Source: an uncultured bacterium (GTDB taxonomy: Bacteria; Bacteroidota; Bacteroidia; Chitinophagales; Chitinophagaceae). Taken from it: a stretch of 47,307 bases of DNA. Numbering within the stretch: position 1 is the first letter of the stretch; every line of letters starts with the position of its first letter. Both the position numbers and the translations under genes were made by a program. Below, in pieces: positions 36,401 to 47,307 of the stretch. Location of the stretch: assembly GCA_903834825.1 (NCBI GenBank), contig CAILKQ010000097.1:1-47307 (forward strand), given 5' to 3'. The notes under the pieces are model-generated. The model searched no databases. It saw nothing but the letters and a program-made list of their open reading frames with translations, and had not been told where the DNA came from.

Positions 36401-38554
36401 CTTGTGTTTTATTGGCGCGTTGCCAAGAAACCCGACACTGGTGTGGTCAACAAATGGTCCAACTCTTCATTTGTTTATCTATCCAAGAGTGGTACTGGAT
36501 GGAGCCAGTCGCATTATTTTCAGTATTTGAAGGATTCCAATGTTGGTTTGATTTATAATCCGGATAGAAAAATTGATTTCGCATATATAAGTTCAACAAC
36601 TAGAATTACATCAAGAATTTATCCAACCGGTTACAATATAGTGGCAAGAAATTTAAATATTCTAACAGGTACTGGTTGTGCAAATACTTTAAATTCTTTA
36701 GAGTTTGTATTGATCGACAAAAAAACAGGTAAAGCAATTTTGAATTCTGATGGAAATGGAAATACACTTTATAGGAGCACCGCACCAACATGCGGAATTG
36801 GGGCTTTGTTATATCAATACTATTTTTCCTACAGTAGTTCAATAAGTCGAAAAAATGCGATTGATTTTTTAAATACATTACCTAATGAGACCATTTTAGT
36901 ACTAAATAATTGGGGTTCGACAACAATTAATTCTAATAATAGTTTTATTGACAAATGGATAGCTGATACAATAAATCTAGGACCTGGAAAGTCTTTGTAT
37001 CATCAATTGAAGGCTTTGGGCTTCTCAAAAATAGATTCGTTTAAAAGGAATATTCCATTTTTATTTGTGGCTCAAAAAAATCAGGTTGGCGCTTGGGAGG
37101 TTTTAGACCAGCAAGTTGGACTTAATTTTTCAGATATATTGAATAGTGAGTTTACATTTCAAGATTTTGGGAATATAGGATTATTAAATAAAAGTATTAT
37201 CGGCCCCGCCAAATCCTGGTCCAGCATCCATTGGACAGGAAACCCTCTGGAGGCGAACTCTGCAGATGATATAAAGTACAAGGTCTATGGGCTGCAACAA
37301 AATTTTAGTGAGACCCTGCTGTATTCGAGCAACAGCAAAAACAAGGACACCAGCATCGCCTTTATCAATGCCAAGACCTATCCATTCTTGCGGATTGAGC
37401 AGGAAAACAAGGATACTGCCAATCATACACCCTGGCAGCAGCGTTATCTACAGGTGAAATATGACCCTGTGCCTGAAGGCGCATTGACTATGGCGTCTGC
37501 TGTTCCCATGAAAGATACCCTTGAAGTGGGGGAGCCCATGAAATTCAAGATGGCTTTCAAAAACATCAGTCCAACTGCTTTTGACAGTGTCAGGTTGTAC
37601 ATGACAAGTACAGATCCTTCCAATACAACCAAGGTTATTTTTGATGGCAATAAAAAACCCATTGTTTCCGGAGATACCATCATGATTGATCAGACGATTA
37701 ATACAAAAAACCTGGTGGGAGATAATGCAGTGTACATCAATTTCAATCCAAACAATGCCCAGCCAGAGCAGTATCTCTTCAACAATTACCTGAACAAAAA
37801 TATTTATGTTAGACCAGACACCTATGCTCCCAACCTGGATGTAACCTTTGATGGGATTCATATTTTGAACAAAGATATCGTTTCACCCAAGCCCAGTATC
37901 CTCATCAAACTCAAGGATGATAGCCGTTACCTGGCTTTGAACGATACCAGTTTGTTCAGCATCAGGTTGGTTTATCCGGATGGACATTTCCGCAGCATTC
38001 GGTTTGACAATGATACTTTACAATTCAATCCATCCAAAAATATACCCGGTGGAGACGACAATGCGGCTACGTTGATCTACAAACCTTTTTTGAAGGAAGA
38101 TGGGGAATATGAATTGATTGTAACAGGCAAGGATGTGAGCAGCAACAAGTCTGGAGCCATTGAATACAGGGTTGCGTTTGAGGTCTATAACAAATCCATG
38201 ATCACCAACTTGCTCAATTATCCCAATCCTTTTACCAGTTCCACAGCATTTGTATTCACCTTGACGGGAACCGAATTGCCATCTCAGTTCAGGATTCAGA
38301 TTTTAACCGTCACAGGAAAGATTGTGAGAGAAATCACCAAACAGGAGTTGGGCCCAATAAAAATTGGACACAATATAACAGATTATAAATGGGATGGCAA
38401 GGACCACTTTGGGCAATCATTGGCCAATGGCGTTTATTTGTATCGGGTCATCGCTGACATCAATGGGAAAAAGATTGATAAGCTGAAGTCTGCAACTTTT
38501 AACACAGATAAATACTTCCAAAGCGGCTATGGGAAGATGTACCTCATGCGATAA
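33488..38554 (+). CDS. C25-family (gingipain/PorU-like) peptidase, PorU2-like
   Basis: 1688 residues from ATG 33488. Signal peptide ending near SLLAQYNNEW. The peptidase C25 domain spans roughly residues 420-760: LLGKGITYDQYRYN, EIPIGRLSV, catalytic His641 in YFGHSS and Cys671 in ANGCNAGNF, 30 residues apart, as expected for the C25 dyad. Ig-like repeats follow; residues about 1018-1238 are an AT-rich region whose text (DFLNTLPNETILVLNNWG, KALGFSKIDSF) resembles an ILEI/FAM3-like domain. The C-terminus (NYPNPFTSST, DGKDHFGQSLANGVYLYRV) is a FlgD/T9SS-like fold. PorU itself is the T9SS sortase; whether this paralogue is a sortase or a secreted protease is open. Its stop overlaps the next start (TAATG). 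Confidence 0.83.
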   Translation: MKKGLLYRRLCLFMMMLLFSASLLAQYNNEWIDYSKSYYKFKVGETGLYRIPFTILQTNGLSNTPAEHFQLWRNGKEVAVFTSKGSGILGSTDFIEFFGQMNDGKADAIMYKKPEFQLSDKWSLQTDTAAYFLTVNASTANARVLNAQNNTASNSLAVEPYFMHRLERHFKDQINPGYASIVGIYVYSSSYDNGEGWSSRNVQPGSPLVEQYNNLAFAPEGPDASLTIAAFGNALNTRKLQVSVNGTKIVDQPMDYFSAAIQTATVQKSLLGRAVDTIRIHNDSPVGSDRITLGKYTLVYPRKFDFGGNGLFEFTLPGTSVGNYLEITNFRNNAVAPVLYELTEGRRYVADMTVPGKFRFALPAGGARNFVMMDASTSAIKLVGEMTKRNFIDYAASSRQGNYLMIAHSSLSASSNGDAIQNYKNYRASNEGGKYQVGIYNIDELVDQFAFGIKKHPLSVKNFIAFAKAYFAVAPQYVLLLGKGITYDQYRYNESRPITERMNILPTFGNPGSDNILASSDNDATPEIPIGRLSVTTGDEINAYLEKVKQHDKSLLPINQTVKDKAWMKNFAHIIGGGDPYLQNVINGYMKSASRFVEDTSIGAKVYTFEKITSAGVDLVNSGLLGNLFTEGLGVLTYFGHSSANSMEFNLDDPSIFDNAGKYPLFMANGCNAGNFFIYDTLRVTASKKTITENYVLVPGKGSIGFIASTHYGIVNYLNLYTSILYRRMAQVDYASSIGQLLANVLKEVIEQGGNDDYYNVLTVEQMLLGGDPAVSLYPHALPDYVVEDPLIKISPTPLSVSNANFDLKVKFQNIGRATQDSVLVHVKRELPDGIMVDLYKQKRTAVYFADSLSISVPINPYTDKGQNKIHVALDPDDKIIEITNTNNSISKIFTIADEEVRPVYPIQFAIVNTPSIKLIATTNQFLSVPAQFMLEVDTTEFFNSPMKVAQTQTSLGGIIEFTPTLQLRDSLVFYWRVAKKPDTGVVNKWSNSSFVYLSKSGTGWSQSHYFQYLKDSNVGLIYNPDRKIDFAYISSTTRITSRIYPTGYNIVARNLNILTGTGCANTLNSLEFVLIDKKTGKAILNSDGNGNTLYRSTAPTCGIGALLYQYYFSYSSSISRKNAIDFLNTLPNETILVLNNWGSTTINSNNSFIDKWIADTINLGPGKSLYHQLKALGFSKIDSFKRNIPFLFVAQKNQVGAWEVLDQQVGLNFSDILNSEFTFQDFGNIGLLNKSIIGPAKSWSSIHWTGNPLEANSADDIKYKVYGLQQNFSETLLYSSNSKNKDTSIAFINAKTYPFLRIEQENKDTANHTPWQQRYLQVKYDPVPEGALTMASAVPMKDTLEVGEPMKFKMAFKNISPTAFDSVRLYMTSTDPSNTTKVIFDGNKKPIVSGDTIMIDQTINTKNLVGDNAVYINFNPNNAQPEQYLFNNYLNKNIYVRPDTYAPNLDVTFDGIHILNKDIVSPKPSILIKLKDDSRYLALNDTSLFSIRLVYPDGHFRSIRFDNDTLQFNPSKNIPGGDDNAATLIYKPFLKEDGEYELIVTGKDVSSNKSGAIEYRVAFEVYNKSMITNLLNYPNPFTSSTAFVFTLTGTELPSQFRIQILTVTGKIVREITKQELGPIKIGHNITDYKWDGKDHFGQSLANGVYLYRVIADINGKKIDKLKSATFNTDKYFQSGYGKMYLMR
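36541..37200 (+). other. AT-rich block inside the porU-like gene
   Basis: One counted 60-base line here (36601-36660) has 16 G/C (27%), against 26 of 60 (43%) in a line just upstream (36421-36480). Codon use shifts to AAT, TTA, ATA and AGA. The reading frame is intact across both edges. The block corresponds to one domain (residues about 1018-1238), which suggests replacement by recombination. Edges are approximate. Confidence 0.65.
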
Positions 38555-39690
38555 TGCAATCCACCATGTCCCATTCAATCCTTTCGCCGGAGTTCAAGTT
38601 GATGTTGTCTTGTTGTCGTGTAAAACCGTGCAGCAGGGAATTTGAACACAGGGCAGAAGCGTTGGGCGCATCCATTGATGAGGAAGTTTTTTTAGCACTC
38701 CTCATTCGCCACAGGGTCTTTCCTATTGTCTATTTCAACCTTAAAGAGGAATCACTTATATCAGACGGATTAAAAGACAAACTGAAACAACTTGCAGCAG
38801 CCAATCAACTTCAGGCCTTACAATCCCGGCACATGCAATTCAGGTTGCAAAAAGAACTGGCCCGAAAGGAATACAAGGGTTTTTTCTTAAAAGGTGTTAT
38901 ACTTTCTGAACAATATTATGGGGATGCTGGACTTCGGCATGTGATGGACATTGATTGTTGGGTGGAGGAGAGGGCCATTGGAAGTACAACAGAATGGTTG
39001 TATGAGGAAGGATATGTTTCTGTGCCAAATATCCAGCAACTAAATACCAAACAAATCGACTTTATCAAAAGAATAGACCATGACCTTCAGTTCCTAACCG
39101 ATAAACCTGGATTACCCAAGGTTATAGAATTGCACTGGAAACTCAGGGGCCCATTGGGTGGATTTAATCTGCAGCCAGATGCACCCATGAATGAGGTGGA
39201 TCATTTTCTTTACCTCTGCACCCATGGTACAGAACACGGGTGGTTTCGGATGAAATGGCTTTTTGATCTTCCTCAGATCATGGATCTTGTAAGCTTTGAT
39301 TGGGATGCAGTAAGGGAGAGAGCCATGGCCTTGGATTGTTTGGATCACCTTGAAATCACCATGATGGTGCTGCAGGAATTTTTGAATGAACCTATACCAA
39401 ATGCAATTTTATCAAGGTTACAGCCTCATCAATATTACCGCCATCTCATGTATATCAGACAGGCCATCGCGGCTGAATCAACCTTTAATGACAATAATGT
39501 CAACCGTTTGGCCTATCTCCAATACATGTTGTTATTGAGCAGGCGAAGATTCAATTGGCCACTGGTATTGAAATACCTGACCAGCCATCAAGACTGGAAA
39601 CTGCTCCCACTTCCCAAACAATTGTTTTTCTTGTATTTCCCGCTTAGGCCATTCCTGGTTTTGTGGAGAAGAATTTTCAGAAGGAAATAG
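38554..39690 (+). CDS. NTP_transf_5 nucleotidyltransferase-family protein
   Basis: 378 residues. The nucleotidyltransferase core is FFLKGVILSEQYYGDAGLR followed by HVMDIDCWV, where D-x-D would bind metal. C-terminal helices follow. Proteins of this family are frequent companions of lasso-peptide clusters, but their exact reaction is not settled; modification of a tail residue or of a phosphorylated product is one proposal. ATG overlaps the preceding stop (TAATG), so translation is likely coupled to the porU-like gene; an ATG at 38566 is an alternative. Confidence 0.8.
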   Translation: MQSTMSHSILSPEFKLMLSCCRVKPCSREFEHRAEALGASIDEEVFLALLIRHRVFPIVYFNLKEESLISDGLKDKLKQLAAANQLQALQSRHMQFRLQKELARKEYKGFFLKGVILSEQYYGDAGLRHVMDIDCWVEERAIGSTTEWLYEEGYVSVPNIQQLNTKQIDFIKRIDHDLQFLTDKPGLPKVIELHWKLRGPLGGFNLQPDAPMNEVDHFLYLCTHGTEHGWFRMKWLFDLPQIMDLVSFDWDAVRERAMALDCLDHLEITMMVLQEFLNEPIPNAILSRLQPHQYYRHLMYIRQAIAAESTFNDNNVNRLAYLQYMLLLSRRRFNWPLVLKYLTSHQDWKLLPLPKQLFFLYFPLRPFLVLWRRIFRRK

Positions 39691-39710
39691 TTTTGAAAAT
39701 GAGTCAAGGG

Positions 39711-41486
39711 CTAAATCCTTTGTTTCTCATACATGGACTTGAACAGTCCTTCTTCCACAATGAGTTGCTCAAACTTCCCTGATTGAACGATTTTTCCATC
39801 TTGCATCACATGGATTGTGTCCGCCATTTTAAGGTTGTACAACCGGTGTGAGATGAGGATGACGATTTTATTCTTTAAGTTGTTTTTTATTTTTTCATAG
39901 AGGTTCAGTTCTGCAAAAGCATCCAGTGCACTGCTGGGTTCATCGAGTACCACCAATTGTGCATCCTTATAAAAAATCCTGGCAAGGGCCAGTTTCTGCC
40001 ATTGTCCTCCACTCAGTTGCTCACTGCCTTCAAAGATGCTCCCCATCTTGGTTTGATAGCCCTTTGCGAGTTTTTCAATGAAGCTGGATGCTCCGCTGCT
40101 CTGCCCTGCTTCTGAAGCCTTTTTCTCAACCAGATTTGTAGTGTTGTATTCAAAGTGAATATTTTGCCCGGCAGTGAGAAAATATTTCTCATAGTCCTGA
40201 AAGAAAAAGCAAGTCTGTTGGTAAAACGCATTTTGCCGAATATCTTGAATATTTATACCGTTCAGTTGAATGCTTCCCTGGTCTGCGGTGTAGAAGCCGG
40301 CCAGCAATTTTACCAGGGTAGATTTTCCAGATCCGTTTTCACCTACTATCGCTATGATCTGCCCCCTTGATGCTTCAATATTGATGCCGCTGATGATGGG
40401 GTGCTGTTGATTGGGGTAGCCAAAGCTGAGGGATTCAATGCGAAGCAGACCAAGTTGATCAGGAAAATCATGGGCAGAAGTTTGTTTTTCTCCTTCGCTC
40501 AATTCGAAAAAACCATAGAGGTCTTTTACAAAACTGCGCAGTTGAAAAACCTGCAACAGGGATTGGAAAAAAGCTTTTGAACTGCTTTGCATCCTTTGTA
40601 TACCCTGCAAGTACAATACAAAAGTGCCCAATCCGATCGATTTCGCAACGGTCTTGATGGCGAGGTATCCAATGGCCAATCCCAGTGCTACTACTTCAAG
40701 CAACTCCGCGATCAAGTTCTGTTGCAAGGCTTTCTTTTGAATCAATGATTTCTCATGGTTGATCTCTCGTCTCAACACCTGAAACCTGTCCTGAAATGCT
40801 TTTCCAAAACGAAAAGTCCTCAACTCTTTTGCCCATTGGATGCCTGTCATCAGTTGAAAAAGATAGCCAGACTCTCTTTCCATGGGTGCAAGTGTGAACT
40901 CAAGGTCAGTTGACCGTTTTCCCTGCAACCATTTGTTGAGGGTGATGGGTATGGCCAAAACAAAGACGGCAATGAAAAAATAGGCCTTGATGGAAACAAA
41001 AAACAGCACAAGAAAGATCAATGACATGGCATTGGAAACGGTTGCATTGATGGCAGGCAGCAATTGGGTGATCCGAAATCGTGCCTGTTGTTGGGCAAGA
41101 TAAAGGCTGTTGTGAAAGGCGGGGTTTTCAAAATGGGCATACTCCACTTTTGATGCCTTTGTGATGATCCTCAAAGAAAAGGCATCGGCAACTTCCTGGC
41201 TGAACAGTTGTTCAATATGGTTGGTGTATTGGTTCAGTGTCCCCAAGGCCAATTGTATGGCTGCAAAAAAGGAGACCAGTAGGATGATTTCAGTTGTTGA
41301 TGGAGCTGGCTGTCCAATCAAATCGATCAGTTCCTTCACCAAGTAGAGCTGCACCAAGGGCAAGATGGAACCAACAATTCTGGCCACCAGGATTTTTAGT
41401 CCTGATTGTTTGTTGATCGCATATACCTCTCTCATCATTGTAGAGAGTTGGTTGATAAAACCGCCCAATTCATTTATTCTGCCCAT
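39711..41486 (-). CDS. ABC transporter (fused membrane and ATPase domains), putative RiPP exporter
   Basis: 591 residues from ATG 41486; the longer ATG 41534 lies upstream of the likely promoter box TACCTTTA (minus strand, 41528-41521). Six-helix membrane domain, then ATPase with Walker A IVGENGSGKSTLVKL, signature EQLSGGQWQKLALA and Walker B QLVVLDEPSSALDA. No C39 peptidase domain at the N-terminus, so it does not cut leaders itself; cleavage must come from the B2 protein. Divergent from the kinase gene. The D-protein role (export and self-immunity) is inferred from lasso clusters such as mcjD. Confidence 0.85.
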   Translation of the reverse strand: MGRINELGGFINQLSTMMREVYAINKQSGLKILVARIVGSILPLVQLYLVKELIDLIGQPAPSTTEIILLVSFFAAIQLALGTLNQYTNHIEQLFSQEVADAFSLRIITKASKVEYAHFENPAFHNSLYLAQQQARFRITQLLPAINATVSNAMSLIFLVLFFVSIKAYFFIAVFVLAIPITLNKWLQGKRSTDLEFTLAPMERESGYLFQLMTGIQWAKELRTFRFGKAFQDRFQVLRREINHEKSLIQKKALQQNLIAELLEVVALGLAIGYLAIKTVAKSIGLGTFVLYLQGIQRMQSSSKAFFQSLLQVFQLRSFVKDLYGFFELSEGEKQTSAHDFPDQLGLLRIESLSFGYPNQQHPIISGINIEASRGQIIAIVGENGSGKSTLVKLLAGFYTADQGSIQLNGINIQDIRQNAFYQQTCFFFQDYEKYFLTAGQNIHFEYNTTNLVEKKASEAGQSSGASSFIEKLAKGYQTKMGSIFEGSEQLSGGQWQKLALARIFYKDAQLVVLDEPSSALDAFAELNLYEKIKNNLKNKIVILISHRLYNLKMADTIHVMQDGKIVQSGKFEQLIVEEGLFKSMYEKQRI

Positions 41487-41516
41487 TGCTTTCTGTGGAT
41501 GCTCTTTGTATATTTG
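41486..41516 (+). promoter_or_regulatory. Promoter of the kinase-PqqD-B2 operon
   Basis: TTG (41486-41488), 20 bases, then TATATTTG (41509-41516). Transcription would start near 41523, about 11 bases before the TTG start at 41534. It overlaps the first codon of the divergent exporter gene. Confidence 0.55.
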
Positions 41517-41533
41517 GCAATAAAGGTAGCACA

Positions 41534-42442
41534 TTGGAGTTTAGGTATTGGGCATATGGATTAAAGGTGGGCAGTCAGATTCCATTTCCGGAACTGTTTC
41601 CTATTGAGGAGGATGGTCCGATGGACCTTGAAATTGTTTTGGGCGATATACCGCTTATCGAGAAAACTGCAACAGGCTTTCATTCTGCAGATTATGACAT
41701 CACTCCTGATGCCTATCGGATCACCATCAAGGATGTTGCCAGTTATCATGTATCCAAAGGCAAGCGCATCATCATTAAAGCAGAACCCAATGCGGACCTG
41801 GACAGCATACGGCTCTTTTGTTTGTCCAATGCCTTCGCTGCAGCCTTGCACCAAAGGAAAACCATTCCCCTGCATTGCTCTGCCATCCTTGATAAGGGTG
41901 AACTGGTATTGGTCTTTGGCGCATCTGGTGCCGGAAAGTCAACCACCTTGGCCTTATTATTACAAAAAGGGTACAAGGCTTTTTCGGATGATGTATGTGT
42001 ACCTGTATTTGATGTTGCAACCAATGAAATAAGTCTTTTCAGCTCATATCCGATGATGAAGTTTTGGAAGGAAACCCTTGATCTTGCTGGTTATTCATTG
42101 AAGGCCGACCGCAAGATCCGGCCGGATATGGAGAAATATGGGATGTATTACCATGATGATTTTATGACAGCGTCAATCAAACCCAAATTGATTGTTATTT
42201 TGGAAAAAGATGACAAAATCGATACCCCAATTATTGAGCCAATTTCAGGGATCAAGCTGTTTCAACTCCTTGAGGCCAATGCCTACAGGGGAGAATATTT
42301 GGGCTTTTCGGATCTCAAAAGGGAGCATTTTACAGTTTTCACGAAGTTGGCAAACCAATCGCGTTGTTTTGTTTTGAAAAGACCGGAATCCGGAAATTTT
42401 GTTCAAGAAGTGGCTGAAAAAATAATTAATTTGCTCAACTAA
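41534..42442 (+). CDS. HprK-like kinase of lasso-peptide clusters
   Basis: 302 residues from TTG 41534, preceded by AAAGGTAG and a good promoter; the frame upstream has only weak starts. N-terminus LEFRYWAYGLKVGSQIPFPEL fits the Y-G-L-x-I-x-S-E-x-P-L-P-E-L style of cluster kinases. P-loop G129-A-S-G-A-G-K135-S-T, then a conserved acidic segment AFSDDVCVPVF as in HPr kinases. In paeninodin-type lasso systems such kinases phosphorylate the C-terminal Ser of the precursor. The precursor here ends in Ser, which fits. Stop overlaps the next start (TAATG). Confidence 0.83.
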   Translation: MEFRYWAYGLKVGSQIPFPELFPIEEDGPMDLEIVLGDIPLIEKTATGFHSADYDITPDAYRITIKDVASYHVSKGKRIIIKAEPNADLDSIRLFCLSNAFAAALHQRKTIPLHCSAILDKGELVLVFGASGAGKSTTLALLLQKGYKAFSDDVCVPVFDVATNEISLFSSYPMMKFWKETLDLAGYSLKADRKIRPDMEKYGMYYHDDFMTASIKPKLIVILEKDDKIDTPIIEPISGIKLFQLLEANAYRGEYLGFSDLKREHFTVFTKLANQSRCFVLKRPESGNFVQEVAEKIINLLN

Positions 42443-42708
42443 TGGAAAAATTCATCCAAAACAAGCCTATCGTGCAATCCAAGATAGGAGAGGAAGTCGT
42501 GATGCTGGACATGGAATCGGGATTCTATTTTGGGCTCAATTCTGTTGCATCGGTGATTTGGGGATTATTGGCCGAGGAGATTGATTTTGAACAATTGATT
42601 GATCAGCTGATGGCACAGTTTGAAGTGGAGAGAGCCCTTTGTGAAGCTGATACCCTGGAGCTCCTTGACCAGATGTTGGATAAAAACATCATCAGAAAGT
42701 TGGGATGA
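42442..42708 (+). CDS. PqqD-type leader-recognition protein (lasso B1)
   Basis: An 88-residue RiPP recognition element. VQSKIGEEVVMLDMESGFYFGLNSVASVIWGLL is the three-strand plus helix PqqD signature (x-x-x-x-x-x-x-L-D-x-x-x-G-x-x-x-x-L-N), followed by a second helical half. It binds the precursor leader and delivers it to the B2 protease. Overlaps the kinase stop and the B2 start, so expression should be stoichiometrically linked. Confidence 0.9.
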   Translation: MEKFIQNKPIVQSKIGEEVVMLDMESGFYFGLNSVASVIWGLLAEEIDFEQLIDQLMAQFEVERALCEADTLELLDQMLDKNIIRKLG

Positions 42709-43121
42709 ACAACCGGGCATTGATTGATTATCTCTTATTTGTGGAGGCCTGGTGCCTGCTCCATTTTGCGAAGCTGGTCATTTTACTGATACCGTTCAAG
42801 CAAATTGCATCCAGGATGGGCCAGCTGCAGGTAGAGTCAGTACATGATCTGCAATCTTTGAAGGAGCCAATAAAAATTGCACATGCCGTTAGAAGAGCAT
42901 CCCGATATACCCTACACAAGAGCAAATGCTATGATCAGGCACTGTCTGCAAAAGCACTTTTGGGTCAAATGGGATTGCCTGCTACTATTTATTTTGGGTT
43001 GGCCAAGGAAGGTGAGAACCAGCTCAGTGCCCATGCATGGGTTCGGTGTGGCAATACAATTATAACTGGAAAAGCAGGAGTGGAGCGTTTTACTGTGGTG
43101 GCCTGTTTTGGTGATGCTTGA
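42705..43121 (+). CDS. Lasso-peptide B2-type leader peptidase (transglutaminase-like)
   Basis: 138 residues with N-terminal hydrophobic helices. The catalytic Cys is C75 in KSKCYDQALSAKALL and the His is H110 in SAHAWVRCG. The residue where many relatives have a third-site Asp (G-D-x-x-x-T-G) is Asn117 here (CGNTIITG). Whether N117 matters is unknown. Cleaves the leader so the cyclase can use the new N-terminus. ATG overlaps the PqqD stop. Confidence 0.87.
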   Translation: MNNRALIDYLLFVEAWCLLHFAKLVILLIPFKQIASRMGQLQVESVHDLQSLKEPIKIAHAVRRASRYTLHKSKCYDQALSAKALLGQMGLPATIYFGLAKEGENQLSAHAWVRCGNTIITGKAGVERFTVVACFGDA

Positions 43122-43127
43122 GCTGGT

Positions 43128-43154
43128 TGATTCAATTTTATCTTTATTGAATCA
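43128..43154. promoter_or_regulatory. 9-bp inverted repeat upstream of the cyclase gene
   Basis: TGATTCAAT (43128-43136) and ATTGAATCA (43146-43154) with a 9-base spacer. No T-run follows, so it is not a terminator. It sits about 20 bases ahead of the -7 element of the cyclase gene and could be an operator. Confidence 0.5.
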
Positions 43155-43174
43155 CATATTGATAAAGTCTTTGT

Positions 43175-43182
43175 TACCTTTG
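43175..43182 (+). promoter_or_regulatory. -7 element for the cyclase gene
   Basis: TACCTTTG matches TAnnTTTG. The start codon lies 67 bases on. No -33 TTTG at the standard distance, consistent with a weak or activator-dependent promoter. Suggests the cyclase and precursor are transcribed separately from the kinase-PqqD-B2 run. Confidence 0.5.
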
Positions 43183-43249
43183 ACGATCTCCTAAAAAACC
43201 ATTTTTATTTTTAATAGGGATAGTGTAGTTACATCCATAAATTTCTACA

Positions 43250-45184
43250 ATGAGTGGTTTTTTCGGCATTTTTCGCCCACAGGGAGGCCCGGTTGATCTT
43301 GAGGCATTTGAGCAAATGAAAACTGCCATGCACAGGGAAGGTTTTGATGGCATGGAAACCCATGTTGAGGATAAAATTGCGATGGGGCATTTGATGCTTA
43401 GGGTATCGCCGGAGTCAAAATATGATAAACAGCCCCTGAAAAGTTCGTGCGGCAATTATATTTTAGTGGGCCATTTCCGACTGGATTACCGCGATGAGTT
43501 GGGCGATAAGTTGGGGCTCACACAATCAGAATTAGAAGTAACCCCCGATTCTCAGTTGGCCATGTTGGCCTACCAGAAATGGAATGATAAGTGTGTGCAT
43601 CATTTGGAGGGGGATTGGGCGTTTGTTCTTTATGACGCATACAAAGAAAGTATTTTTATCGCAAAAGATAAGTCAGGTGTTTCTTCGTTATTTTACATTG
43701 TCATTTCAAACCAATTGTATTTTTCATCTGATTCAAAGTCAATTTTAAGTTTAAATGGTAATCTATTCAGCATAAATTGTTCGAATTTTGAAAAAATGTT
43801 AAAGATAGGATTTAATTTAAGTGATGAGACCACTCTCATTAATGACTTGTATTTTCTTAAAAACGGTAAAATAATTGAGTTTAATAATAAATTGAAACAA
43901 GTTCCACAGATTTATTGGGAAATACCTTTCACTGATAATCTTAATTATCGTCTTTTGGAAGATTATGTGGCTGATTTTAATTTTTATTATTCTGAAGCAA
44001 TTAAATCAGCTGTTAGATCTGGAAGTATTTCTAAAAATGATGTAGGTATATTTTTAAGCAGTGGGTTAGATTCTACGTCGGTTTGTTTTTTTGCATCTAA
44101 AGAACTTGAATACAAATCAAAAAAAATTAGCACATTTACTTCTTTTCCAAGCCATAATTTTGAAGGTATTCCTGAGACAAGCATTATTTGCAATGAAATG
44201 CCAATTGTGAAGAAATATTTATCATCGCTTACCAATATCAATGCGAGTTTCCATGAATTTTCCAATTACGACCAATCATTAATTTTTAAAAGGATTTCTA
44301 GTCAAGAAGCCTTCAATCCAATAGTGACTAAAAATTCTTTTTGGATAAATGGGATTATGGATTATTCAAAAAATGCAGGGATTAAAAATATTTTAACTGG
44401 ACAGATAGGTAATTATACTGTCTCATGGAGTGGTGGATATCATTATTCAGATTTGCTTCTTAGATTAAAAATAAAGCGACTCATAGATGATATTCAAGAT
44501 GAATTGAAATTGAAAAGAGGAGTTTTTTTTAACACACTAAAGACAATTTTATTTCAGCCTGTAATTATTCAACTTTCATCACTTTATGGATCGTTTATTT
44601 TTGAAAAGAAATTTAAATCAAATAGTTTGTTCGATTATAATCCTTCAGTTTATTCTAAAAAATCGCTTAGTAAGTTTTATTTTATTCAATTTTTAATTTC
44701 AAACATATTGCCTCAAAAAAAAATGCGAAAAATTTTACAGCAAAATTCAATTTTGTTTTGCGGGATTTCTTGGGCAATAAACTCGACTAATAGTGCTGTT
44801 CAAGTTGTCGACCCAACTTCTGATTCACGATTAATTACTTTTTTGAATGCTATTCCACATAGATTTTATTTTATGAAAGGAATTCGTAAATATTTGTTCA
44901 AGACATTAATGAAGGGCAGAATTCCAGAATATATTTTAGACAATAAAAAACGGAAAATTCAATCATATGATTTTCCTTTACGAATCAAAAATGACTCAAT
45001 CTTTGATGAGTTGATTTACACAAAATCTAGCGGTGTAGGCAAAGTTTACTCCTTTAATGTCAAGAAAACGAATGAATTATTAGGTAATATACATTCAAAA
45101 CCAATGAGTTACCTCGAAAGTGGAGATGTCAATATGTTTTTGAGGGCATTGTCATTAAAAATATTTTCAAATTCAATAAAATGA
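43250..45184 (+). CDS. Asparagine-synthetase-type lasso cyclase
   Basis: 644 residues. The N-terminal class II amidotransferase-like domain begins MSGFFGIFRPQGG; residue 2 is Ser, so the Cys nucleophile for glutaminase is absent, as in McjC-type cyclases. The synthetase domain has the ATP-binding loop S270-S-G-L-D-S275. The later motif reads TGQIGNYTVSWSGG where true asparagine synthetases have G-x-G-G-D-E, a change also known from lasso cyclases. The first 390 bases have local GC typical of the genome; the remainder is strongly AT-rich, as if recombined. A 54-residue precursor follows 27 bases after the stop. Confidence 0.87.
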   Translation: MSGFFGIFRPQGGPVDLEAFEQMKTAMHREGFDGMETHVEDKIAMGHLMLRVSPESKYDKQPLKSSCGNYILVGHFRLDYRDELGDKLGLTQSELEVTPDSQLAMLAYQKWNDKCVHHLEGDWAFVLYDAYKESIFIAKDKSGVSSLFYIVISNQLYFSSDSKSILSLNGNLFSINCSNFEKMLKIGFNLSDETTLINDLYFLKNGKIIEFNNKLKQVPQIYWEIPFTDNLNYRLLEDYVADFNFYYSEAIKSAVRSGSISKNDVGIFLSSGLDSTSVCFFASKELEYKSKKISTFTSFPSHNFEGIPETSIICNEMPIVKKYLSSLTNINASFHEFSNYDQSLIFKRISSQEAFNPIVTKNSFWINGIMDYSKNAGIKNILTGQIGNYTVSWSGGYHYSDLLLRLKIKRLIDDIQDELKLKRGVFFNTLKTILFQPVIIQLSSLYGSFIFEKKFKSNSLFDYNPSVYSKKSLSKFYFIQFLISNILPQKKMRKILQQNSILFCGISWAINSTNSAVQVVDPTSDSRLITFLNAIPHRFYFMKGIRKYLFKTLMKGRIPEYILDNKKRKIQSYDFPLRIKNDSIFDELIYTKSSGVGKVYSFNVKKTNELLGNIHSKPMSYLESGDVNMFLRALSLKIFSNSIK

Positions 45185-45211
45185 AATATTTTTACTTAAA
45201 TTTTTTATTCT

Positions 45212-45376
45212 ATGTTTACTAATAATGAAACATTAGGTCTAGGTCAATCCAAGTTAATTTGGTCAAATCCAAAAATTTCGATTCTCCCTTTGAACAACAC
45301 GTTTGGAGGATGTGTTGATACTGTGGCGAAACCTAACCCTAATTCCTCTGACGGAGCTGAATCAACTTGTTCATAA
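45212..45376 (+). CDS. Candidate lasso-type precursor peptide (54 residues)
   Basis: ATG 45212 to TAA 45376, the only in-frame start after the stop at 45197. The leader contains W17-S-N-P20 (Y/W-x-x-P motif read by PqqD-type proteins), then I22, L25 and T30, with F31 and G32-G33. Thr two residues before a Gly-initiated core is the established lasso rule (as in microcin J25, L-T-K then G-G). The predicted core (residues 32-54) starts GGCVDTVAK and ends ESTCS, with Cys at core positions 3 and 22 and a C-terminal Ser. Acidic residues are at core 5, 16 and 19 but not 7-9, so canonical ring closure is not explained. Directly behind the cyclase gene and within the same AT-rich block. Confidence 0.78.
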   Translation: MFTNNETLGLGQSKLIWSNPKISILPLNNTFGGCVDTVAKPNPNSSDGAESTCS

Positions 45377-45542
45377 GTTATAATTAAACTAAACAAGGTC
45401 TATTTTATTATTATATCTAATTACCTTGATTTCATTCGTATAGCTTGATTTCATTCGTTTTTAATAGCTCGAAATGTATGAGATTTTAAATTTTCCAAAG
45501 GTTACTAATTTTTGTTTGTTTCAATTTTTATAAAATTTCCCA
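45377..45542. other. AT-rich spacer between precursor and rpsU
   Basis: About 165 bases with a short direct repeat (45425-45458). A 19-codon open frame starts at ATG 45474 but resembles nothing. No terminator was recognised after the precursor. Confidence 0.5.
45425..45458 (+). repeat. Direct repeat CTTGATTTCATTCGT, two copies
   Basis: Two identical 15-base copies (45425-45439 and 45444-45458) on a 19-base period, in the AT-rich spacer after the precursor. Confidence 0.85.
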
Positions 45543-45573
45543 TTTGGTGTTATCACCAAATCCCCTATCTTTG
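45543..45573 (+). promoter_or_regulatory. rpsU promoter with overlapping palindrome
   Basis: TTTG (45543-45546), 19 bases, TATCTTTG (45566-45573), an exact consensus. The -33 element is the left arm of the palindrome TTTGGTG-TTAT-CACCAAA (45543-45560), so a bound regulator or hairpin could compete with polymerase. Confidence 0.75.
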
Positions 45574-45596
45574 CAATCCCTAAAAAGAGGAAAAAT

Positions 45597-45791
45597 ATGC
45601 TTATCATCGATTCAAAAGACTGCGAAAACATAGACAAAGCCCTTAAGAAGTACAAAAAGAAGTACGAAAAATCCAAAACGCTTTTGCAATTGCGTGAGCG
45701 TCAGGCATTTATAAAGCCTTCTATCAGGCGCAGGGGTGAGATGCTGAAAGCGATCTACAAGCAGAAGATCTTCAACGGCACCATCGAGTAG
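45597..45791 (+). CDS. rpsU: 30S ribosomal protein S21
   Basis: 64 residues, small and basic. LRERQAFIKPSIRRRGEMLKAIYKQ is the hallmark of S21, near the mRNA exit of the 30S subunit. Preceded by AAAGAGGAAAAAT. Followed by a hairpin that borders xerC. Confidence 0.95.
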   Translation: MLIIDSKDCENIDKALKKYKKKYEKSKTLLQLRERQAFIKPSIRRRGEMLKAIYKQKIFNGTIE

Positions 45792-45819
45792 TAGTTGTTG
45801 CTTCGCTAAAAAATATTCC

Positions 45820-45862
45820 AGAGTAGTCATGCGGTTCACTAACTTTATGACTACTCTTTTTT
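45820..45862 (+). terminator. Terminator between rpsU and xerC, ending at the xerC start codon
   Basis: An 11-bp stem, AGAGTAGTCAT / ATGACTACTCT (45820-45830 and 45847-45857), 16-base loop, then a T-run up to 45862. The xerC ATG begins at 45863, so the T-run and right arm occupy the space where a leader would normally be. Confidence 0.75.
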
Positions 45863-46765
45863 ATGCCCATACCCCAGCAGCCCATACTGTCCCCATTCCT
45901 TGATTTCATCAAGTTCGAAAAGCGCTATTCGGCGCATACCTACAGGGCATATGCTGATGATCTTGTCTCCTTTTTTTCCTTTGTTCAGGTGCAATTTGAG
46001 GTGAGCCAGCCTGCAGAGGTCACCCCGGGCATGATCCGGTCCTGGATGGCATCACTGACCCTGATCAAAGTACAGCCCAGAAGCATCAACAGAAAAATAT
46101 CTTCCCTCAAATCATTCTTTCGCTATTGCCTGATTCACGGTCAAATCTCAGCCAATCCGACCAAAACCATCCAGGTCCTGAAGACCAGAAAACGATTACC
46201 GTCTTATGTGGAGCAGGACCAGATGGAGACACTGTTGAACCAAACCACTTTCCCCGATGATTTTGGGGGCAGGGGAGACCACCTGATCCTTTCCCTGCTC
46301 TACCATACCGGCATCCGGGTCAGCGAGTTGGTAGGCCTGAAATCAAGCCAGATTGATCATGCAAGAAGCCAGTTGAAAGTGTTGGGAAAAGGGAACAAGG
46401 AAAGGATCATTCCGCTACAAACTGAATTAACAGAAAAGATCAGGGAATATGCCCAGGAAAAGGCCGCTCTTTTTCCGGATGCGATCTTTCTCAACCTCTT
46501 GCTTACCCCAAAACAGAAGCCCCCAACGGCCCGTCAGGTCTATGATACCGTGAAAAAATACCTTTCATTGGTGACCACCGCAGAGAAGAAAAGCCCACAT
46601 GTATTGCGCCACAGTTTTGCCACCCACCTCACTGGAAATGGAGCTGAACTGAATGCCGTAAAAGAGTTGCTTGGGCACAGCAGCCTGGCGGCCACGCAGG
46701 TCTATACACACAACAATATTGAGCGTTTGCGGGACATCCACAAAAAAGCCCATCCCAAAGGATGA
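45863..46765 (+). CDS. xerC: Tyrosine recombinase XerC/XerD-type
   Basis: 300 residues. N-terminal SAM-like DNA-binding domain (FLDFIKFEKRYSAHTYRAYADDL), C-terminal catalytic domain with R152 (HTGIRVSEL), H246-x-x-R249 (HVLRHSFATH), H272 (LLGHSSLA) and the nucleophile Y281 (TQVYTHN). Resolves chromosome dimers at dif. The start ATG abuts the rpsU terminator; no other good start is seen. The rpsU-xerC-raiA order is common in Bacteroidota and supports a housekeeping Xer, not a mobile-element integrase. Confidence 0.93.
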   Translation: MPIPQQPILSPFLDFIKFEKRYSAHTYRAYADDLVSFFSFVQVQFEVSQPAEVTPGMIRSWMASLTLIKVQPRSINRKISSLKSFFRYCLIHGQISANPTKTIQVLKTRKRLPSYVEQDQMETLLNQTTFPDDFGGRGDHLILSLLYHTGIRVSELVGLKSSQIDHARSQLKVLGKGNKERIIPLQTELTEKIREYAQEKAALFPDAIFLNLLLTPKQKPPTARQVYDTVKKYLSLVTTAEKKSPHVLRHSFATHLTGNGAELNAVKELLGHSSLAATQVYTHNNIERLRDIHKKAHPKG

Positions 46766-46865
46766 TTTTTCGTTTTTTTTAACGAATTTAATGTTGACCT
46801 CCATTTCATTTTGCGTAACTTAATAGGAGAATCGATCTTATCCTTCACAATAAAAATCCGCCGAA

Positions 46866-47165
46866 ATGACCGTTAACATCCAATCTGTACATTTTGATGC
46901 CGACACAAAATTGCTTGACCACGTGAACAGGAAAATTGCCAAAATCGGCAGCCACTACGACAGGATCATGAACGTTGATGTTTTTCTTAAACTGGACAAT
47001 GTCATCCACCAGATAAAAGACAAGGTTGCAGAGATTCGTGTGCAGATTCCCAAGCACGAAATTTTTGTCAAGCAAAGCACCAAATCCTTCGAGGAATCCT
47101 TTGACATGGCGCTTGATGCGGTGCTGATAAAGATTAAGAAAGTAAAGGAAAAACAGTCCGTTTAA
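46866..47165 (+). CDS. raiA: Ribosome hibernation factor HPF/RaiA family
   Basis: 99 residues, the short (HPF/YfiA) form. Beta-alpha-beta-beta-beta-alpha fold: MTVNIQSVHFDADTKLLDHVNRKIAKI, then IRVQIPKHEIFVKQSTKSFEESFDMALDAVLIKIKKVKEK. It binds the 30S decoding centre in stationary phase, blocking tRNA and mRNA; the long form's extra dimerisation domain is missing. Confidence 0.93.
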   Translation: MTVNIQSVHFDADTKLLDHVNRKIAKIGSHYDRIMNVDVFLKLDNVIHQIKDKVAEIRVQIPKHEIFVKQSTKSFEESFDMALDAVLIKIKKVKEKQSV

Positions 47166-47227
47166 TTTGGCTGCTGAAATATTTCTAAATTTTTTTCTAC
47201 AAATTTTCTGCTTTTGAAGAATTCCAT

Positions 47228-47235
47228 TACCTTTG
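47228..47235 (+). promoter_or_regulatory. -7 element of an outgoing promoter
   Basis: TACCTTTG, 63 bases after raiA. In relatives the next genes are usually tRNAs and tuf; nothing of them is visible before the window ends. Confidence 0.45.
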
Positions 47236-47307
47236 CCTCCCCAAAAAGGGATAGATCTTTTATAGATTGAAGTGTTATCGGTAAGGAAGTCAAAACCATT
47301 ATTCCGC

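Follow-up and report, generated by a model that had tools for sequence, protein, structure and literature searches.

A lasso-type gene cluster between porU and rpsU with a possible Lys-Asp side-chain ring and a putatively exchanged cyclase-precursor cassette

The 47,307-nucleotide stretch of DNA analysed here (the window) appears to hold a lasso-type RiPP cluster that lies between porU and rpsU in one genus, with the short gene A encoding its precursor. In the reading tentatively preferred here, which is judged to have somewhat less than an even chance, the AsnB-like enzyme C joins the side chains of a Lys and an Asp of the core into a ring of lasso size, and a disulfide and modification of the C-terminal Ser complete the product. 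The wider proposal, that a lasso-type cyclase closes Lys-Asp side-chain rings in a two-tailed, disulfide-locked product and that species-specific cyclase/peptide alleles are swapped as one unit behind a constant front in the manner of polymorphic recognition systems, is possible as a whole, with the chances leaning against it.

The precursor gene A occupies positions 45212..45376 of the forward strand as an unbroken frame of 54 codons from ATG to a TAA stop, and its start follows the end of the cyclase gene C after a gap of 27 bases. The leader of 31 residues (45212..45304, +) contains W17-S-N-P20 and Thr30 at -2, from which the cut site was predicted. The resulting core of 23 residues, GGCVDTVAKPNPNSSDGAESTCS (45305..45373, +), opens with Gly-Gly, carries Cys3, Lys9 and Asp16, and ends in Cys22 and Ser23. 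The start codon, intact frame, leader motifs, Thr at -2, Gly-Gly start and C-terminal Ser named by the original prediction were all found at this place. Among the 323 open reading frames of 35-80 aa in the window, A alone matched the pattern W-x-x-P-x9-T-x with 15-40 residues behind it, and 60 block-shuffled windows gave a mean of 0.22 frames with the leader pattern and none with the full signature. An Rfam search over 38000-47307 returned no match. Based on its sequence, its relatives and the leader-pattern search, A is a real gene and very probably the precursor gene of the cluster. Its earlier designation as the cluster's substrate is well supported by the lasso-type gene set and by relatives with the leader pattern upstream of rpsU.

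A B2 protease, a B1 RRE protein and an AsnB-like C are encoded together in front of A, as in lasso peptide clusters. B2 (42705..43121, +) is a transglutaminase-like leader protease that matched Pfam PF13471 and NCBIfam NF033537, both above cut-off, and the Cys of its C-[YF]-D-Q-A motif and the His of its A-H-[AS]-W motif, which we take to be the catalytic residues, are kept in all 16 aligned B2 proteins. B1 (42442..42708, +) is a PqqD-like leader-binding protein that scored above cut-off for PF05402 and below it for NF033536, with matches in PDB entries 9x90 and 5v1u; C (43250..45184, +; 644 aa) also stayed under its NCBIfam cut-off. Upstream lie the genes of an HprK-related kinase (41486..42442, +; start codon uncertain), an ABC exporter (39711..41534, -; PF00005) and an NTP_transf_5 nucleotidyltransferase (38554..39690, +; PF14907, 118 bits), and rpsU (45597..45791, +) is the constant 3' neighbour outside the cluster. 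NCBIfam HprK_rel_A was the best match of the kinase, at 30 bits far below the cut-off of 200 and over residues 117-172 only. The position of the kinase gene next to B1 and the Ser that ends 14/14 distinct cores of the family agree with tailoring of the paeninodin type. No ATP-grasp family, which would mark a graspetide cluster, was matched by the nine proteins scanned against Pfam. Between B2 and C, at 43129-43153, lies an inverted repeat (GATTCAAT...ATTGAATC) just 5' of a TAnnTTTG-like site recognised by eye, possibly an operator or a terminator. A Bacteroidota promoter pattern matched four times in the window, one match lying upstream of rpsU; as many matches were obtained in 4 of 100 shuffles.

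Searching 195 genomes of the family with the single 54-residue sequence revealed no convincing relative besides itself; weak matches arose in 85 of these genomes at E up to 1, the second best at E 0.004, and the start frames of the 19 other loci returned showed the leader pattern in no case. Relatives were traced by gene order, with B2, B1 and Xer searches (the latter two over 41 genomes of the genus) and reading of the DNA. The recurrent order was porU - NTP_transf_5 - (ABC) - kinase - B1 - B2 - C - A - rpsU - xer - HPF, on contigs some of which are incomplete. An intact A upstream of rpsU was present in 18 of the 41 genomes, that of the window included, and these 18 precursors, picked by position and the W-x-x-P leader and not by the core, all carry W-x-x-P-x9-T-x with Thr ten residues past the leader Pro. 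Both leader marks of lasso precursors, Y/W-x-x-P and Thr at -2, are accordingly found in 18/18. The original prediction had been made dependent on relatives beside the same gene neighbour; such relatives are present, and its claim stands in this respect. For L057, L061 and L062 an internal ATG was taken as the precursor start, and kinase lengths, mis-called in several genomes, were not used.

A profile search of the 41 genomes matched 19 of them, the 18 with precursors and G015, whose relic is not counted among these; G023 gave a further match to a remnant on another contig. A search of 388 family genomes with alignment A1 matched nine: five were members of the genus already known, one was the G015 relic, and the remaining three, at E 0.003-0.006, were taken as chance. 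Scanning genome contigs with C gave five loci, L026-L029 and the distant L030, and a scan of viral contigs gave no match. Five genomes share the identical core KNFIQCDGIGVPGEDYACFS, whose DNA differs pairwise by 5-13 per 60 bases, all synonymous, and the 15 leader codons ahead of it differ by 0-8 residues among the five. Since the core DNA varies synonymously only while the leader residues vary, the A frame and the core are under selection at the protein level. These loci (L074, L075, L077, L124 and L126) form a sister group in which the core is the same and the leaders vary, in contrast to the precursors near the window, whose cores vary.

Several loci depart from the common arrangement. The precursors at L126 1742-1894 (-) and L123 3457-3606 (-) keep the pattern in loci from which C is absent (G021, G254), and genome-wide searches of G254 and G021, which are 82% and 87% complete, gave no match to the clade-2 C and none to B1. 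At L061 4475-6547 (-) in G025 the cyclase frame continues without a stop into the precursor, possibly as a C-A fusion protein. The G015 relic (L142 1213-1632) is a porV-like start, recognised by eye, that runs into a decayed precursor after a deletion. Another deletion relic, L056 3271-4215 on contig C240 of G023, has nothing left but a B2 and a precursor scrap. The G023 genome, contaminated to 7%, contains the locus on two contigs, intact in L077 and deleted in L056. Five loci (L055, L059, L062, L071 and L123) have an open reading frame between A and rpsU that was recognised by eye as riboflavin synthase.

The core was the part in which the family deviated from lasso precursors. Read from Thr at -2, the window core carries its acids as Asp5, Asp16 and Glu19 and lacks the acid at positions 7-9 that lasso precursors carry, a gap that the original prediction had passed over while listing the motifs correctly. 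Its claim of a lasso substrate is supported as regards a precursor of a lasso-type cluster and not supported as regards the normal ring register. Asp or Glu at core 7-9 occurs in 5/14 distinct cores, which is the commonest value in shuffles, and is absent in 9/14. For comparison, 38 small open reading frames near other lasso loci of the family were collected, 12 of which match W-x-x-P-x9/10-T-x and give 11 distinct cores; unlike the window core, 10 of these 11 have an acid at 7-9 and contain neither Lys nor Cys. The eleventh, L065 16461-16643 from the window's genus (no acid at 7-9, two Lys), was judged a chance frame, L065 containing a better precursor candidate, and the set of ten controls picked by eye did not contain it. 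Seven precursor-like frames lacking Thr-x were left out (L064, L065, L076, L081, L084, L086 and L089), and those of L064, L065, L076, L084 and L089 have Lys behind the leader.

Every one of the 14 distinct cores contains exactly one Lys (chance about 7e-6 if 14 Lys are spread by length) and exactly two Cys (chance about 1e-7). Asp stands at Lys+6 or Lys+7 in 14/14, which 20,000 shuffles matched in at most 9/14. Among 5,600 classes of residue pair and spacing (1-15), Lys-Asp ranked at the top; in 3,000 shuffled sets the best class reached at most 13. These values were largely obtained on the cores in which the pattern had been found, and the 14 are not fully independent, with L061/L122 and L054/L062 looking related. 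Only the cores of L122, which resembles L061, and L123 were read after the pattern had been noted, and both fit it. The G015 relic retains the Lys and the Asp as well. The Lys lies 0-12 residues behind Thr-x; a fixed N-terminus can therefore not belong to a ring of constant size, and the Lys side chain can, provided that the cut falls at Thr-x. A Cys lies within the first four residues in 11/13 cores (the shared clade-2 core not counted), and the spacer before Lys consequently probably stays in the product.

These features suggest the following pathway. B1 would hold the W-x-x-P leader and B2 would cut after Thr-x, as the conserved Thr implies. C would then adenylate Asp16 and link it to the side-chain amine of Lys9 instead of the N-terminus, leaving an N-terminal tail with Cys3 outside the ring. 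Such a Lys-Asp lactam has 29 ring atoms in the window core and the other +7 cores and 26 in the Lys+6 relatives, the sizes of a Glu9 and a Glu8 lasso ring; lasso rings closed at Asp8 or Asp9 have 25 or 28. A Cys3-Cys22 disulfide is presumed to form in addition. By analogy with paeninodin and pseudomycoidin, the kinase may phosphorylate the C-terminal Ser and the nucleotidyltransferase may decorate it, and the ABC protein would export the product. The Lys-Asp crosslink itself is predicted from sequence patterns, and the five of 14 cores with an acid at 7-9 may encode ordinary lassos. In 11/13 cores the Lys is preceded by G, A, S, C or N (background 0.49, P 0.009), which has the look of a lasso N-terminus and was counted against the side-chain ring, in favour of a different cut.

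This different cut is the serious rival, though an unlikely one: an ordinary lasso would be released just before x-Lys (before Ala8-Lys9 in the window), and the alpha-amine of x would close on the conserved Asp to give a ring of 8 or 9 residues with Lys as ring residue 2. The ring size is indeed 8 or 9 in 14/14 cores, 11/13 have as x a residue that is usual at lasso position 1, and in clade 2 x would be the last residue of the leader as delimited by Thr-x. The L053 precursor further suits the proposal, with Thr-Gln directly before Asn-Lys...Asp9 in normal register and Asn1 as in metanodin (PMC12670498); both readings make a normal lasso of L053. Against a displaced cut, most precursors would then be cut elsewhere than at the Thr that the leader keeps in a fixed place, 11/13 cores would lose one of their two Cys, and the Lys at ring position 2 in 14/14 would be left unexplained.

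Weighing the cyclase itself bears on a second possibility, rather unlikely in our estimate, in which no Lys-Asp bond forms: Lys-x5/6-Asp would serve as a recognition or salt-bridge motif in a disulfide peptide whose Asp is amidated or otherwise modified. The closest solved homologue of C by sequence and fold, 7ylz, is a hydroxyamidotransferase, in keeping with such a modification. In ten aligned sequences, however, C starts with M-S-G or M-S-S, Ser in the window protein replacing Cys2 of the glutaminase domain, presumably the catalytic residue of AsnB amidotransferases, and the lack of this Cys is what cyclases lead one to expect. Cys2 is also missing from the 14 C starts examined, some of them chosen by script. 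The S, G, D and S of an S-x-G-x-D-S loop are kept in 14/14 C proteins; the loop reads S-S-G-L-D-S in the window. The predicted fold groups with 7ylz, asparagine synthetases, beta-lactam synthetase and carbapenam synthetase, in a poor AlphaFold model (pLDDT 60) that supports an AsnB-like fold only. Beta-lactam and carbapenam synthetases form intramolecular amides. The side-chain ring is thus supported by a C fold that matches these synthetases and by the missing glutaminase Cys, and the strict Lys-Asp spacing also fits a covalent link better than a recognition motif.

The reading of the original prediction, an ordinary lasso in the Thr -2 register with its ring at an unusual position or of unusual size, is distinctly improbable: the leader motif and the genes are those of lasso clusters, 2/14 precursors match the paeninodin family model below its cut-off and 5/14 cores have an acid at 7-9, but the window acids at 5, 16 and 19 and the nine cores with none at 7-9 do not fit it, and the first residues include Asp, Val, Thr and Lys, against the G, C, S and A reported for lasso position 1, joined by Asn since metanodin (PMC12670498).

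Besides the proposed ring, the catalytic part of the cyclase and the peptide look, from sequence comparison, like an exchanged cassette. Six near genomes were compared, the window (W) and L050-L054. Residues 1-120 of C are 82-96% identical across the six, and residues 136-375 are only 27-40% identical in 14 of 15 pairs, L052/L054 reaching 68%. DNA similarity among them is lost at about codon 124, window position 43621, and four further C proteins appear by eye to break near the same codon in the alignment. The window accordingly divides into a constant front of C of about 124 codons (43250..43621, +) and a variable cassette of the rest of C, A and the intergenic DNA up to the rpsU promoter (43622..45560, +), with sharp DNA edges placed within about 10-20 bases. 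In blocks of 180 bases, GC is 45-47% in the front against 23-32% in the rest of C of the window; in the five remaining near genomes the drop is from 42-48% to 21-36%, except for two L054 blocks at 40% and 43%. Similarity resumes at the rpsU promoter near 45560 in W, L051, L053, L054, L121 and the second contig of G030 (L122).

The tree test for exchange covered W, L051, L053 and L054 out of the six near genomes. These four form one clade (100/100) for the constant proteins of the ten genomes compared, and this clade was rejected for the catalytic domain; the p-AU of 0.024 is moderate, and the program flagged long branches. Fast vertical evolution of a low-GC block without cassette exchange is the alternative and is improbable. 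It agrees with W and L051 remaining well-supported sister alleles in the catalytic domain (100/99) and with the moderate strength of the rejection, but leaves unexplained that ten C proteins, and six of them also in their DNA, lose identity in the same codon region, that GC steps down at the same place in the near genomes, that a clade fully supported by constant genes is rejected in the catalytic domain, and that L052 and L054 share an allele that W lacks. Under exchange, A and the catalytic part of C would be inherited jointly as an allele, and we infer that homologous recombination, acting within the constant C front and at rpsU, has swapped alleles between species.

Two other origins were set aside. 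The Xer recombinase was rejected as a mover of the cassette, as loci without the cluster (L125, L128-L134) show the order rpsU-xer-HPF too, and 41/41 genomes gave Xer-type matches, counting a paralogue. Mis-assembly was rejected as the cause of the GC step, because several genomes show the step and keep the frame open there. Some contigs stop within C (L050, L052, L058) or B2 (L060), perhaps from mixed alleles in the sampled populations, other causes being possible. L061 and L122 have similar cores but share only 28% identity in the second half of the cyclase; cores and cyclases may therefore also part company.

If the side-chain ring is correct, the fold of lasso cyclases can accept the amine of a side chain, and lasso-sized rings can be placed within a chain independently of the N-terminus, which would be useful for peptide engineering. 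An exchanged cassette of enzyme and substrate with trans-species alleles would suggest selection for difference, as in kin signalling or antagonism. The alleles would be natural matched pairs of cyclase and core for learning specificity, with the common core of the sister clade as a natural contrast. A literature search by title and start of abstract gave no Lys-Asp ring formed by a lasso cyclase and no cassette exchange in a lasso cluster.

The nearest known systems share parts of this arrangement. The loci L078-L088 from other genera of the same family encode B1, B2 and C homologues and a W-x-x-P ... T-x leader like that of the window, and the difference lies in the cores described above. 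Graspetides would have Lys-acid side-chain lactams in common with the proposed product (compare PMC12291112); their side-chain to side-chain rings are made by ATP-grasp enzymes, whereas the window encodes an AsnB-like enzyme. The paeninodin type (PadeA/K/B1/B2/C) resembles the window cluster in its split B1 and B2, HprK-like kinase and C-terminal Ser, and differs from the window family in the single Lys with Asp at +6/+7, the two Cys and, for nine of the 14 cores, that of the window among them, the missing acid at 7-9. The paeninodin model NF033524 (cut-off 27 bits) did not match the window precursor, and the two relatives that it matched reached 22.5 bits at best. The paeninodin-type kinase acts on the C-terminal Ser, and in pseudomycoidin PsmK phosphorylates this Ser and PsmN adds a hexose (PMC9266682). 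Pseudomycoidin is likened to the window cluster by gene content, with kinase and nucleotidyltransferase genes both present, and differs in core chemistry and host. Lariocidin is described as a lasso peptide with a second isopeptide bond (PMC13352647), which adds to a lasso ring, whereas the window core is without the normal ring acceptor. In polymorphic toxin systems, variable 3' parts arise by recombination with cassettes (PMC3482391); unlike in those systems, the exchanged parts here would be a biosynthetic enzyme domain together with its peptide substrate.
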